A DNA stretch of 64,000 nucleotides from Sphingosinicella microcystinivorans (GTDB lineage: Bacteria > Pseudomonadota > Alphaproteobacteria > Sphingomonadales > Sphingomonadaceae). The DNA is taken from contig NZ_CP116005.1 of NCBI RefSeq assembly GCF_027941835.1, positions 3,611,501 to 3,675,500 on the forward strand. The letters run 5' to 3'. How positions within the stretch are numbered: the stretch's first letter is position 1; the number at the start of each line of letters is the position of its first letter. Under the pieces are notes generated by a model. The model made no database searches, was not told where the DNA came from, and saw only the letters and a list, made by a program, of their open reading frames with translations. Made by a program: the position numbers and the translations under genes. This document shows positions 16,842 to 22,573 of this stretch, in pieces.

Positions 16842-19307
16842 CTAGTAAATGCCGCCGGTGGATTGCAAGAAGTCGCTGTCGGAGCGCACGATCTCGCGCT
16901 TCTCGAACGGGTCGTAGGCGGCGGCGAGGCGGCGCGGCTCGCTTTCGGGCTTGAACGCCTCCCAGATCACCGCCGCGCGCGGATCGGTATCGACCTGCCA
17001 GCCGCCGTAGACGCGCTTGCCGGAGCGCCGGTCGATGCGGACCATGCGGACGCCCGGCGCGATCTCGAACGGGCGCTTCGGCGCATCCTTGAGCGCGGCG
17101 ATGGCGAACTGCTTGAACACGGGCGCGGCGAGCGTGCCGCCCTGCGCGTAGCCGCCCATGTTCTGCGGCTCGTCGAAGCCGAGATAGAGCCCGGCGACGA
17201 CGTCCGCCGTGCCGCCCACGAACCACACGTTGGTCGGGCCGTTGGTCGTGCCGGTCTTGCCGAACATGGGCCGATCGAGATCACGCAGCACGACCGCCGT
17301 CCCCCGCTGCACCACGCCTTCCAGCATGTGGATGACCTGATAGGCGGTCTTCGCGTCGATCGCCTGCGGCCGCGCGTCGGCCGGGCGCGGCATCGCGTCG
17401 CCGTCCCAGTCCGGCGCGCTGCAACCCGCGCAGTCGCGTGCGTCGGCGCGGTAGATGGTGCGGCCGTGCCGGTCCTGGATGAGGTCGTAAAGCACCGGCG
17501 ACTGCCGCTTGCCGCCGTTCGCGAGCATCGCATAGGCGTTCGTCAGCCTCAGCACCGTCGTCTCGCCCGCGCCGAGCGACATGGAAAGCACCGGCGCCAG
17601 CTTGGCGATGCCCATCTGGTCGATGGTCTCGACGACCTTGTCCATGCCCGTGTTGTAGGCGAGACGCACCGTCATCAGGTTGCGCGACTGCTCGAGGCCC
17701 CAGCGCATCGTCTGCGGACCCGCGTAGCCGCCCGAGAAGTTGCGGAAGCACTTGGTGCCGAGCGAGCGCGTCTGGAACACGCAGTAAGGGCCGTCGACGA
17801 TCACCGACGCGGGCGTGTAGCCGTTGTCGAGCGCCGCCGCATAGACGAACGGCTTGATCGCCGAGCCCGGCTGCCGCATCGCCTGCGTCGCGCGGTTATA
17901 CTGCGAGCGGCGCGCGTCGAAGCCGCCGACCATCGCCAGCACGCGGCCCGTCGACACCTCCATCACCACCATGCCGCCGCCGACGTCCGGGATCTGGCGC
18001 AGCGTGTAGTCGTCGCCCGCCACGCGTTTCACCGGGATCACATCGCCGGGCGCGAGGCGCTGGAACGCGGGCACGCCGACCCCGCGCACGGGCAGCGAGG
18101 CGTTCTGCGCGGACATGCGGCCCCTCGTGCCGTCCTCGAAGCCGAGCGAGATCGTGCCGCCGGCCTTTTCGAGCACGACGGCGGCGCGCCAGTCGTCATA
18201 GCCGACCGGCAGGTTCACCGCGCGCAGCCGCTGCGGCCAGCCATCGCCGAGGTCGATCTTGTCGGTGGCACCGCGCCAGCCGCGCGGCCGGTCGTACTTC
18301 ACCAGCCCGTCGCGCAGCGCCGTCTCGGCGGCGCGCTGCATCACCGGGTCGATCGTGGAGCGAATCCAGAGCCCGCCCGTGTAGATGCCGTGCTCACCCT
18401 CCTCGCCGTATTTCTCGACGAGTTCGCGGCGGATGTCCTCGATGAAATAGTCGCCGGTGCGGTCGCGCGGGATTTCGGCGCGGTTGACGACGGCGATCGG
18501 CTCGGCGGCGGCGGCGCGCGCCTCGGCCCGCGTCACGTAGCCGTTCTCCGCCATTTGCTCGAGCACCCAGTTGCGGCGCGCGAGCGCGCGGGCGCGGCCC
18601 GTCTCGGTCGAGGGATTGTAGTTGGCGGGCGCCTTCGGCAGCACGGCGAGGAACGCCGCCTCAGCCAGCGAAAGCTCGTCGACCGGCTTGTTGAAATAGG
18701 CGAACGACGCCGCCTGCACGCCGTAGGCGCTGCGGCCGAGGAAGATCTGGTTCAGGTAAAGCTCGATGATCTCGGGCTTGGTGAGCGCCTGCTCGATGCG
18801 CCGGGCGAGGAATATCTCCTTCACCTTGCGCACGTAGCTGACCTCGTTCGTGAGCAGGAGGTTCTTCGCCACCTGCTGCGTGATCGTGGAGGCGCCGACG
18901 GGCCGCTTGCCCGTGCCCATCGCCTTGAAGTTGGTGATCGCCGCCTGGAAGATGCCGGGCAGGTCGATGCCGGGATGCGTGAAGAACGTCTTGTCCTCGG
19001 CGGACACGAACGCGCCGACGAGCTGCTTCGGCGTCTGCTCGTAGTCGAGGAAGATGCGCCGCTCGCGCGCGAAGCTCGTGAACGGCGTCCCGTCCACGGC
19101 GCGCACATGGCTGGGCAGCGGCGGCTCGTACTCGGCGAGCTGCGCCGCATCGGGGAGCCCGCGCGCGAAAATCAGCCAGGCGGCGAACACCGCGAGGAAG
19201 CCGAGCGCCGCCAGACCGCCCGCGACATAGGAGAGCACCCGCACCCAGCGCGGCAGGGCACGGAAACGGCTTTTGAGTTCGCCGGGAAGCTGGGCAAGAC
19301 GTGCCAT
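16842..19307 (-). CDS. mrcA: Penicillin-binding protein 1A (bifunctional)
   Basis: 821 residues, class A PBP. A membrane anchor lies at about residues 25-50. The GT51 glycosyltransferase domain follows with EDKTFFTHPGIDLPGI (catalytic Glu) at about 100-115. An OB-like domain (about 320-430) typical of PBP1a comes next. The transpeptidase domain has SAIK with catalytic Ser482, SRN and KTGTTN motifs. It polymerises and cross-links peptidoglycan. The order amiC, mrcA, prfB on one strand is common in alphaproteobacteria; here a two-gene plus-strand cassette splits amiC from mrcA. Its promoter must lie in the 130 bases shared with that cassette. Confidence 0.95.
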   Translation of the reverse strand: MARLAQLPGELKSRFRALPRWVRVLSYVAGGLAALGFLAVFAAWLIFARGLPDAAQLAEYEPPLPSHVRAVDGTPFTSFARERRIFLDYEQTPKQLVGAFVSAEDKTFFTHPGIDLPGIFQAAITNFKAMGTGKRPVGASTITQQVAKNLLLTNEVSYVRKVKEIFLARRIEQALTKPEIIELYLNQIFLGRSAYGVQAASFAYFNKPVDELSLAEAAFLAVLPKAPANYNPSTETGRARALARRNWVLEQMAENGYVTRAEARAAAAEPIAVVNRAEIPRDRTGDYFIEDIRRELVEKYGEEGEHGIYTGGLWIRSTIDPVMQRAAETALRDGLVKYDRPRGWRGATDKIDLGDGWPQRLRAVNLPVGYDDWRAAVVLEKAGGTISLGFEDGTRGRMSAQNASLPVRGVGVPAFQRLAPGDVIPVKRVAGDDYTLRQIPDVGGGMVVMEVSTGRVLAMVGGFDARRSQYNRATQAMRQPGSAIKPFVYAAALDNGYTPASVIVDGPYCVFQTRSLGTKCFRNFSGGYAGPQTMRWGLEQSRNLMTVRLAYNTGMDKVVETIDQMGIAKLAPVLSMSLGAGETTVLRLTNAYAMLANGGKRQSPVLYDLIQDRHGRTIYRADARDCAGCSAPDWDGDAMPRPADARPQAIDAKTAYQVIHMLEGVVQRGTAVVLRDLDRPMFGKTGTTNGPTNVWFVGGTADVVAGLYLGFDEPQNMGGYAQGGTLAAPVFKQFAIAALKDAPKRPFEIAPGVRMVRIDRRSGKRVYGGWQVDTDPRAAVIWEAFKPESEPRRLAAAYDPFEKREIVRSDSDFLQSTGGIY

Positions 19308-19437: not shown

Positions 19438-20478
19438 ATGGATACGGAATTCCTCCACGAACACTGCCTCCAGATTCCCGCGCATCTGAAGGCTTCGCTC
19501 CGAATCATGCTGCTCGCGAAGCACGCCCGCGGCGACGGCAGCCACGACCCGGTGGACGGCAACCATGCCGTCTATCACCACGAGCTTCGCCAGACGCTCG
19601 GGAAGATCGGCCTCGATGTCGTCGCGGCGGACAGCTTCGAGGCGCTGTTCGCGGCGCCCGACGTCGATTTCGTGTTCCCGCTCCTGAACCGCGCCGGGTT
19701 CCTCAACAGCGAGATGCTGGCGCCGCTGCTGCTCCAGCGGCTCGGCATCCCCTATCTCGGCGCCTCGCCGATCCTGCGCGGCCTTTCGGACGACAAGCAC
19801 CTGATGAAGCTGGCCGCGCGCCAGCACGGCGTGCCGACCTCGGACTGGCGGATCATCCGCCGCGGCACGGACCTCGCCGCCGCCGAGCCGCTGAACGCGG
19901 CGCGCTACATCGTCAAGCCGAACGCCTCCTCGGCGTCGTGGGGCATCGGCGTCGCCGAAAGCTGGGCGGGCGCGCTCGCGCACGCCGCGCACCTCCACGC
20001 CGCGGGCCACGACGCGATCATCGAGCCGTGGCTGCCGCTGCTCGACGTCGCGGTGCCGGTGGTCGGCGGCCGCGCGCCGGAGCCGTGGCTGCTGCCCGCG
20101 ATGGCCTACATCCCCGCCGACCCCGACACGCTGCGCAGCTACGAGGAGAAGCGCGCGCTCACCGAGCAGCGCGACGATCCGCTGGAAGTGCTGGCGAACG
20201 CCCGCGTCGCGGAGCGGCTGTCCGCGATGACGCGCACGCTCTGCCGCGAGCTCTGGCCGTTCGACTACGGGCGCTTCGAGTTCCGCTACGATCCGGCGAC
20301 CGAAAGCGTGTGGTTCATGGAAGTGAACCTGTCGTGCAATCTCTGGTCGAGGAAGAGCATTTCCCGCTCCGCCGCGACGCTCGGCATCGCGCATCACGAA
20401 CTCGTCGAGTCCATCGTCGCGCACAGCCTCTGGCGGCAGGGCCTGATGACCGCCATGCCGGACAGGCTCGTCGCCTGA
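19438..20478 (+). CDS. ATP-grasp protein related to D-alanine-D-alanine ligase
   Basis: 346 residues, about the length of Ddl. The N-terminal third reads FVFPLLNRAGFLNSEMLAP then GIPYLGASPILRGLSDDKHLMK, the pattern of Ddl-type ligases where the substrate and ATP grasp begin. YIVKPNASSASWGI (about residues 156-169) corresponds to the KPNxxGSSxGV ATP-binding loop, and FEFRYDPATESVWFMEVN (about 280-297) to the metal-binding Glu/Asn strand. Substrate residues differ from Ddl, so I do not call it ddl. The next gene starts one base after the stop, so the two work together. Its place between mrcA and amiC hints at an envelope or peptide-ligation role (inference). Confidence 0.7.
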   Translation: MDTEFLHEHCLQIPAHLKASLRIMLLAKHARGDGSHDPVDGNHAVYHHELRQTLGKIGLDVVAADSFEALFAAPDVDFVFPLLNRAGFLNSEMLAPLLLQRLGIPYLGASPILRGLSDDKHLMKLAARQHGVPTSDWRIIRRGTDLAAAEPLNAARYIVKPNASSASWGIGVAESWAGALAHAAHLHAAGHDAIIEPWLPLLDVAVPVVGGRAPEPWLLPAMAYIPADPDTLRSYEEKRALTEQRDDPLEVLANARVAERLSAMTRTLCRELWPFDYGRFEFRYDPATESVWFMEVNLSCNLWSRKSISRSAATLGIAHHELVESIVAHSLWRQGLMTAMPDRLVA

Positions 20479-20479
20479 A

Positions 20480-21328
20480 ATGAGCGCCGGTTTCTCTGCC
20501 ATCGTGCTTGCGGGCAGGCGCGACGGGCGGCTCGATCCGCTCGCCGCGAACGCGGGCGTTTCGCACAAGTGCCTCGTCCCCGTCGCCGGAAAGCCGATGC
20601 TCCTCCACGTGCTGGAAGCGCTCGACGCATCGCCGGGGATCACCCGGATCGTCGTTTCGATCGACGCGCCGGACGTGATCGCGCCGCTGATCCGGCGGCT
20701 CGGCAGCGGCCGCATCAGCGTGGAGCCGTCCGCGCCCAATCTCGTCGACAGCGTGTTCGGCGCCGCGAACGCCTCCGCGCCGCCCTTCCTCGTCACCACC
20801 GCCGACAACGTGAACCTCACGCCCGCGAGCGTCGCCGAGATTCTCGCCGCGGCGCAGGGCGCGGACGCCGCCGCCGCGTTCGCGCGCCGCGAGCGCGTGG
20901 TCGCCGCCCACCCGGACGGGCAGCGGCGCTTCTACCGCTTCCGCTGCGGCGACTATTCGAACTGCAACGCCTATGTGCTCGGCTCGCGCGAGGCGCTGAA
21001 AGCCGCCGAGGTCTTCCGGGGCGGCGGCCAGTTCGCCAAGTTCCCGATGCGGATCGTGAAGGCGTTCGGCCTCCTGAACCTCATCCGCTTCCGCTACGGC
21101 CTCGCCACGCTCGACGGCGCGTTCCGCGGCTTTTCACGGCGGTTCGGCCTCGCCATCCGCCCCATCCGCGTCAGCGACGGCGCGCTCGCCATCGACGTCG
21201 ACAACGAGCGCACGCTGCACATCGCCGAAACCATCCTCGGCGAACGCGGATCAGCGCTGGGCGAGCCGCCGCAGGAAGTGCGCCTCGACCGCGCGGCGCA
21301 CCGCCTTGGCGATCCGCTGCTGGCCTGA
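20480..21328 (+). CDS. NTP-transferase (MobA/GlmU-like nucleotidyltransferase family)
   Basis: 282 residues. It opens AIVLAGRRDGRLDPLA then GVSHKCLVPVAGKPML, the Rossmann-like nucleotide-binding signature of sugar- or molybdopterin-type nucleotidyltransferases. TTADNVNLTP (about residues 109-118) supplies the metal-binding Asp. The acceptor substrate cannot be read from sequence. It starts one base after the ATP-grasp gene. Its last 26 codons overlap the end of amiC on the other strand by 78 bases, unusual for a tail-to-tail pair. The two genes together look like a small pathway in which one product is ligated and another activated with a nucleotide (inference). Confidence 0.7.
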   Translation: MSAGFSAIVLAGRRDGRLDPLAANAGVSHKCLVPVAGKPMLLHVLEALDASPGITRIVVSIDAPDVIAPLIRRLGSGRISVEPSAPNLVDSVFGAANASAPPFLVTTADNVNLTPASVAEILAAAQGADAAAAFARRERVVAAHPDGQRRFYRFRCGDYSNCNAYVLGSREALKAAEVFRGGGQFAKFPMRIVKAFGLLNLIRFRYGLATLDGAFRGFSRRFGLAIRPIRVSDGALAIDVDNERTLHIAETILGERGSALGEPPQEVRLDRAAHRLGDPLLA

Positions 21329-22573
21329 GGCGGAGAAGAGGAACTTCGAGTCCTCCTCGTTCGAGAGATAGCCGGTCTCGAGCAGCACCGAGGGTACGTC
21401 CGGCGCCTTCAGCACCAGGAACCCGGCGAAGCGGTGGAACTGGCTGCGCACCTTGATGTCCTGCCGCATCTCGCGCTGGAGGATGGCGGCGAACTCGGCG
21501 GACGTGTTCATCGTCTCGCGCTGCGCGAGGTCGATGAGGATGTCCGACACCTCGTTGGTCTCCACCGCGAGGTCGACGCCCGCGATGATGTCCGACCGGT
21601 TCTCCTTGGCGGCGAGGCGCGCGGCTTCGGCGTCCGACGCGGTTTCCGAGAGCGTGTAGACCGTCGCGCCGCTCGCATTCGGCACCGGCGCGCTGTCGGC
21701 GTGCACGGAGATGAACAGCGAGGCGTTGTTCTGCCGGGCGACGCCGAAGCGGTCGCGGTGGCGCAGGTAGGTGTCGTCGTCGCGCGTCAGGATCGCCTTC
21801 ACGCGGCCCGAGGCATCGAGCTCCTTCTTGATCGCCTTGGCGATCGCGAGAACCACGTCCTTCTCGTATTTCTTCTCGCCGAGCACGCTGATCGTGCCGA
21901 CGTCCTTGCCACCGTGACCGGCGTCGATCACCACGACCGGCAGCCGCCCGGCGACACGTGGGCGCTGCGGAGGCGGCGCGGCAGCGGGCGCCGGGGACGG
22001 TGCAGCCGCCGCGACCTTGACCGGCGCCGCGGGTGCCGGCTTCACGACCGGCTTCGACGGCGCCGGAGCTGGCGTGATCTGAGCCGATGCGACGACCGGC
22101 TTCTCCACCTTCTCCGGCGCGGGCACCGTCGCGGCGACCAGCGTCGTGCGGCCCGCCGCGACGAGCTTCGCGAACACGTCTTCGGTCGCGGGCGCCAGCG
22201 TCAGCCGCAGTTTTCCCCCGGAAAGCGAACTCGCGGTGATGCGCGCGGGCGATGCGAGGTCGAGAACGACGCGCGCGGTATCGGCATCGAACTGCGCCGT
22301 CCGCACCCGCGTGACGAGCCCGTTTCCGGCCGTCGATCCGCCTTGCGCGGTCATGCCGTCGAGGTCGATGGCGAGCCGCGACGGGCCGGAAAGCGCGAAG
22401 GCCGAAACGCGCCCGGCGCCGTCCGCGCCGATGGTGATCGTGGCGCCCTCGCCGCTGACGGTCACGGCGGCGTCGCCGAGCCGCGCGGCCGTCGCGGGCG
22501 CCGACAGCGCGAGGCACGCCGCGAGCAGCGGTGCGCAAAGCGCCTTTCCTCCCCGCCTCAGCCAGCGCGACAT
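21251..22573 (-). CDS. amiC: N-acetylmuramoyl-L-alanine amidase
   Basis: 440 residues. Signal peptide (cleavage near ALSAPATA, about residue 29), an AMIN domain (about 35-135) for localisation at the division site, a Pro/Ala/Val-rich linker (about 150-205), and the Amidase_3 zinc domain (about 212-435). VVIDAGHGGKDVGT carries the first zinc His; FISVHADSAP and the EN/LLETGYLSN segment carry the later His and catalytic Glu. It cleaves the bond between MurNAc and the peptide to split daughter cells. A possible promoter is at 22642-22670. rne is divergent. Confidence 0.92.
   Translation of the reverse strand: MSRWLRRGGKALCAPLLAACLALSAPATAARLGDAAVTVSGEGATITIGADGAGRVSAFALSGPSRLAIDLDGMTAQGGSTAGNGLVTRVRTAQFDADTARVVLDLASPARITASSLSGGKLRLTLAPATEDVFAKLVAAGRTTLVAATVPAPEKVEKPVVASAQITPAPAPSKPVVKPAPAAPVKVAAAAPSPAPAAAPPPQRPRVAGRLPVVVIDAGHGGKDVGTISVLGEKKYEKDVVLAIAKAIKKELDASGRVKAILTRDDDTYLRHRDRFGVARQNNASLFISVHADSAPVPNASGATVYTLSETASDAEAARLAAKENRSDIIAGVDLAVETNEVSDILIDLAQRETMNTSAEFAAILQREMRQDIKVRSQFHRFAGFLVLKAPDVPSVLLETGYLSNEEDSKFLFSASGQQRIAKAVRRAVEAHFLRRLAQR

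Follow-up and report, generated by a model that had tools for sequence, protein, structure and literature searches.

Alphaproteobacterial phosphosphingolipids can replace LPS function, and the pathway that makes them is still being elucidated; among its enzymes, CpgB and CpgD have been assayed. With CTP, CpgD converts phosphoglycerate to CDP-glycerate (PMC12275187). CC_1153, a CofC-like nucleotidyltransferase, is required for CPG2, in which a second phosphoglycerate is added onto ceramide phosphoglycerate (PMC11324152). In assembly of the F420 tail, CofC activates a phospho-acid with an NTP, CofD transfers it, and CofE and CofF add glutamates (PMC8498797).

Here we analyze a gene pair from Sphingosinicella microcystinivorans, located in a 64,000-nucleotide stretch of contig NZ_CP116005.1 (positions 3,611,501 to 3,675,500; hereafter the window). 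The first gene encodes a ligase with the Ddl fold (AG) and the second a nucleotidyltransferase (NT). Both enzyme superfamilies are known; the combination of AG and NT and its kinship to a sphingolipid step appear new to the literature that we searched, in which we found no published description of the pair. Our literature searches for ccna_01211 and PF14397 gave no relevant result.

Table 1 Features of the AG–NT locus, in window coordinates
Feature	Position	Strand	Basis
AG, Ddl-fold ATP-grasp ligase, 346 aa	19438..20478	+	PF07478, AlphaFold model, alignment A1
NT (clade A), MobA/IspD/CofC-like nucleotidyltransferase, 282 aa	20480..21328	+	PF12804, model, alignment A2, tree
NT/amiC overlap, 78 bp, 3' end of NT (+) with 3' end of amiC (-)	21251..21328		ORF coordinates
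mrcA/PBP1A-like flanking gene (context only)	16842..19307	-	ORF; adjoins amiC in relatives
amiC-like N-acetylmuramoyl-L-alanine amidase flanking gene (context only)	21251..22573	-	ORF; adjoins mrcA in relatives

AG and NT co-occur across genomes

The first-pass annotation had described two plus-strand genes one base apart and had proposed that they form a system that should recur as a pair in other genomes. The coordinates bear out the spacing (TGA-A-ATG), and the pair recurs: among 199 genomes of the family, 70 carry both genes and 6 carry one (AG only in 1, NT only in 5), with neither in 123 (Fisher P = 2e-46, a value that ignores phylogeny). For these counts, AG was called present at E-values up to 1e-20 (71 of 199 genomes). 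NT was counted as the clade that contains the window protein (NT-A; 75 of 199 genomes), set apart from its paralogue by a score gap, with the borderline genome G058 left out.

The two genes lie within 2.5 kb of each other, always on the same strand, in 42 of the 70 genomes that have both, and at separate loci in the other 28. These 28 genomes are the only observation in favor of the view that two unrelated genes happen to be adjacent in the window. We give that view practically no weight, and the co-occurrence refutes it: of the 76 genomes that carry at least one of the genes, 70 carry both, even where the genes are far apart, and, read genus by genus, about 20 genera mix members with both genes and members with neither, a pattern of joint gain or loss. 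We are nearly certain that AG and NT constitute one module. AG occurs in Sphingomonadales, Methylopila and its relatives, Kordiimonadales, Phenylobacterium and Caulobacter. In the class and phylum samples, strong AG matches are rare and confined to the class, the sole match outside it being weak (1.6e-27).

AG has the Ddl fold and altered substrate residues

AG matches the Pfam family PF07478 (Dala_Dala_lig_C) weakly, at 28.4 bits against a cut-off of 24. The NCBIfam Ddl models score it at 59.6–63.7 bits, with cut-offs near 245; for TIGR01205, the Ddl family model, the score is 59.6 bits, below the cut-off of 245.65. The AlphaFold model of AG (pLDDT 87) has as its best PDB match the DdlB structure 8evz, with a TM-score of 0.73 normalized by query and 0.80 by target and a sequence identity of 22%.

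We paired AG residues with those of Escherichia coli DdlB by HMMER alignment and read them by their roles in DdlB, which we take to be ATP and magnesium binding for one set and D-alanine binding for the other. DdlB K97, K144, E180, K215, R255, E270 and N272 correspond to AG K120, K160, E196, K238, R279, E295 and N297, all seven of which are invariant among the 32 AG members of alignment A1. The counterpart of DdlB D257 is a glutamate (E281). The first-pass annotation had called AG Ddl-like with differing substrate residues, and this is what the alignment reveals, the D-alanine-binding positions S150, Y216, G276 and S281 of DdlB being replaced by A166, A240, N301 and K306, respectively; at the position of A240, most homologues have aspartate. 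The N-terminal half of AG carries motifs of its own, DGNHAVYHHE and LLNRGGFxNSEML, and has no motif that corresponds to the E15 region of DdlB.

A true Ddl is encoded elsewhere in the genome (C1:2536163-2537062), with a score of 275.9 bits that lies above the cut-off. Score, residues and the presence of this bona fide Ddl at another locus rule out that AG is the housekeeping enzyme. Because the D-alanine-binding residues are lost and the true Ddl is encoded elsewhere, AG is a ligase with another substrate; judging from its modeled fold, it is a carboxylate–amine ligase of Ddl descent. What AG has in common with DdlA and DdlB is thus the fold, the ATP/Mg residues and the acyl-phosphate chemistry to be expected from them, whereas the sequence, the family score, the D-alanine residues and the substrate-binding N-terminal half, which has no motif in common with Ddl, all differ. 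A better name is now possible for proteins that resemble Ddl by fold.

NT is a paralogue of a probable phosphosphingolipid enzyme

NT belongs to PF12804 (NTP_transf_3; 50.1 bits, cut-off 27). Its model (pLDDT 89) is disordered at residues 274–282 and best matches 2dpw (TTHA0179), an uncharacterized Thermus transferase, followed by structures of the GlmU, IspD and KdsB types. The assignment as an NTP-transferase with an LVPVAGKPM motif and a metal-binding aspartate, made at first pass, agrees with our alignment: the motif occupies residues 32–40, the aspartate is D109 within TTADN, and R14, K30, D109, D239 and D241 are invariant among the 37 NT members of alignment A2. About half of the NT homologues also match cytidylyltransferase models, which may be a weak hint that CTP is the nucleotide used.

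Profile searches place both proteins in known superfamilies, yet neither reaches the equivalog cut-offs that we tested. NT scores 15.6 bits with the MurU model NF045761 (cut-off 250) and 14.8 bits with TIGR03552, the model for the CofC phospholactate guanylyltransferase (cut-off 105), and it is far below the cut-offs for MobA, KdsB, IspD and GlmU; we rejected all of these identities. In Sphingosinicella, NT has a C-terminal tail that derives from the overlap with amiC and is absent from most homologues in A2. The last roughly 25 residues there are antisense to the 3' end of amiC and are predicted to be partly disordered.

The genome studied encodes a paralogue of NT (L005:9145-9945, minus strand) with 33–36% identity and the same R, K and D motifs. 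In a tree of 93 NT proteins, the AG-linked sequences form clade A (68 members, including the window NT) and the paralogue falls in clade B (25 members), the two being sister clades with support of 100/99. Directly adjoining the clade B gene is one for a CpgD-like NTP transferase (L005:8356-9096, minus strand; about 4490–4492 kb of contig C1), and together these genes probably correspond, in sphingomonads, to the CC_1152/CC_1153 pair.

The NT of Caulobacter sp. RHG1 is also a clade B protein; its gene lies in a sphingolipid operon (L254/L261), flanked by CpgD-like and CerS-like genes. This operon begins with genes for the CpgD-like protein, NT, an acyltransferase, LptG/LptF-like proteins, a HIT protein, a phosphoesterase and a CpgA-like CDP-alcohol transferase, and continues with kinase-like, Spt-like, ACP, epimerase, acyl-ACP synthetase, flippase, CC_1167-position and LptC-like genes; we checked only part of these names against Pfam and read the others from the sequences. 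The order is that published for CC_1152 to CC_1168 (PMC11324152). Operon position and domain together point to clade B as the CC_1153-type enzyme.

NT-A and the CC_1153-position enzyme are alike in their PF12804 domain and motifs, but they form separate clades, both occur in Sphingosinicella at different loci, and it is clade A that follows AG. NT would share with CpgD a nucleotidyltransferase activity on small phospho-acids, but CpgD-like proteins are of the PF00483 type and NT matches PF12804 only; the CpgD-like homologue next to NT-B is a different gene. As a paralogue of a nucleotidyltransferase that the pathway needs, and one strictly paired with a ligase, NT offers a genetic handle on what such enzymes activate.

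The two clades also meet at shared loci. A cluster in Sphingosinicella sp. LHD-64 contains, in this order, CpgD-like, CC_1167-like, CpgA-like, NT-B, HAD phosphatase, AG and NT-A genes, and several relatives carry either AG/NT-A or the clade B set between rne and sdhB. Around rne and sdhB in this family, sphingolipid-type genes (CpgA-like, NT-A or NT-B, flippase, HAD) are found repeatedly, at seven of the loci compared. In the genome studied, the CpgA-like gene adjoins an sdhB-like gene (L238:8184-10278; about 3808–3811 kb of C1).

The CpgA-like CDP-alcohol transferase is thus present in this genome; by the search used, it was not found in 51 of the 71 AG genomes. AG and the CpgA-like transferase co-occur at chance level (20 genomes seen, about 22 expected), an absence of enrichment that led us to reject dependence of AG on this transferase. 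The product of the pair therefore need not be a CPG-type lipid.

The mrcA–amiC location is specific to Sphingosinicella

As previously annotated, the pair lies between minus-strand mrcA and amiC, which are adjacent in many relatives (for example, at seven of the loci compared); the overlap between NT and amiC is an addition to that description. The label 'peptidoglycan gene cluster' given to the locus was an overstatement. The surrounding stretch is mrcA–amiC–rne, and AG–NT between mrcA and amiC is seen only in Sphingosinicella (the window and three further loci), which rules out membership in such a cluster. Close homologues occupy the same position in Sphingosinicella soli, S. microcystinivorans and a Sphingosinicella MAG (88–92% identity for AG, 89–90% for NT). 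In GC and GC3, both genes match the other genes of the window, and this composition rules out recent foreign DNA. A role in anti-phage defense was also discarded, PADLOC having returned zero matches.

The Ddl fold of AG and the adjoining mrcA and amiC genes in Sphingosinicella could suggest that the pair modifies peptidoglycan, for instance by producing a D-Ala-X or depsipeptide terminus. We regard this as very improbable, given that the location is genus-specific, that AG no longer has the D-alanine-binding residues, that NT scores far under the MurU cut-off and that Mur or Van partner genes do not recur at the AG–NT loci surveyed. The earlier proposal of a small envelope-modifying pathway survives in part. 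Co-occurrence upholds a two-enzyme module, and a role in the envelope is likely; the tie to peptidoglycan is unsupported because the pair moves among loci, its partners are of lipid or glycan type, and the kin of NT reside in phosphosphingolipid headgroup clusters.

Partner genes and proposed function

We surveyed partner genes at 79 named AG loci. NT-A is present at 64, an ATP-grasp protein of family PF14397 (ST) at 39, a GT4 glycosyltransferase at 23, a PLP-fold-like protein at 12 and an MOP flippase at 6, mostly within one operon. Gene order varies by lineage: AG-NT-ST-GT4 in Sphingobium, AG-NT-ST-flippase in Sphingomonas oleivorans and Croceicoccus, the full AG-NT-ST-GT4-flippase set in Erythrobacter litoralis, Elm1-like-AG-NT-ST in relatives of Methylopila, and ST-AG-NT in Caulobacter and Phenylobacterium. 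In Kordiimonas and its relatives (six loci), AG-NT directly precedes an operon for an Mla-type lipid transporter, with genes for MlaE, an ABC ATPase, MlaD and an ABC_trans_aux lipoprotein. NT-A lies no more than 4 kb from an MOP flippase gene in 30 family genomes, some with AG elsewhere, and this flippase shares 30% identity (2e-30) with its homologue at the CC_1166 position. In the Sphingosinicella genome studied, only the pair is present: the search turned up no close flippase, and the PF14397 proteins encoded are distant ones. Dependence on PF14397 was rejected; a strong PF14397 match was found in 15 family genomes, of which 14 have AG, yet most AG genomes are without PF14397.

Our preferred reading, which we hold tentatively, is that AG and NT make a headgroup for a lipid or glycolipid of the envelope. 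We infer the substrates, nucleotide, acceptor and order of steps as follows. NT would condense an NTP (CTP or GTP) with a small hydroxy-acid or sugar that carries a phosphate, releasing pyrophosphate and leaving the headgroup activated by the nucleotide. A transferase, in this genome encoded away from the pair, would then pass the headgroup to a lipid or glycan acceptor. Before or after this transfer, AG would use ATP to convert a carboxylate of the same headgroup to an acyl phosphate, and the amine with which it then forms an amide is probably an amino acid. In genomes that have the PF14397 ATP-grasp protein, this protein could attach one more residue, with the GT4 enzyme and the MOP flippase completing and translocating the product. 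A lipid headgroup is favored because phosphoglycerate headgroups expose a carboxylate that could be amidated. It is weakened by the GT4 and PF14397 partners, which would suit a glycan just as well, and by the cell-wall genes next to the pair in the window.

Such a sequence of steps would resemble F420 tail assembly in its logic of activation, transfer and amidation only, as CofE is a different type of ligase and NT scores far below the CofC cut-off. In its most specific and rather unlikely form, the proposal would make AG–NT the source of an undescribed class of alphaproteobacterial envelope lipids with an amino-acid-amidated phospho-headgroup, in which a Ddl-derived ligase amidates a nucleotide-activated phospho-acid, as if chemistry like that of the F420 tail had been moved to the outer membrane. 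The pairing itself suggests an amide-bearing headgroup, for which we found no earlier search in the literature.

The main alternative, which we consider less probable than a lipid headgroup, is decoration of a surface exopolysaccharide or glycolipid: NT would form an NDP-sugar, AG would link an amino acid to a uronic acid through an amide bond, and assembly and export of the glycan would fall to the GT4, PF14397 and MOP flippase proteins. The AG-NT-ST-GT4 and AG-NT-ST-flippase operons are consistent with this alternative, as are the export of glycan units by MOP flippases and the resemblance of NT to GlmU-type folds. However, the closest kin of NT are found in a phosphosphingolipid cluster rather than a glycan cluster, and no glycan genes accompany the pair in Sphingosinicella, Kordiimonas or many Erythrobacteraceae.

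It is more doubtful still that the pair makes a soluble, dipeptide-like or cofactor-like molecule outside the envelope, such as a nucleotide-linked or phosphorylated peptide. Ddl-like ligases and NTP-transferases do co-occur in natural-product chemistry generally, the pair is sometimes without a transferase or flippase, as in Sphingosinicella, and the PLP-fold-like protein lies beside AG at 12 of the 79 loci, but MOP flippase, GT4 and lipid-transport neighbors recur.

The PLP-fold-like protein is about 500 aa long, carries the motifs TGSKFMGGPPFSG and is represented by L065:10415-11938 (plus strand), with relatives at eight further loci (alignment A3). Searches of this protein against Pfam, NCBIfam and the PDB gave zero matches, and a search of the genome studied found it absent there. 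At three loci, and at two others besides, AG paralogues with about 45–59% identity to the window AG occur in tandem or near-tandem, an arrangement that suggests two successive ligations or an altered substrate in some species.
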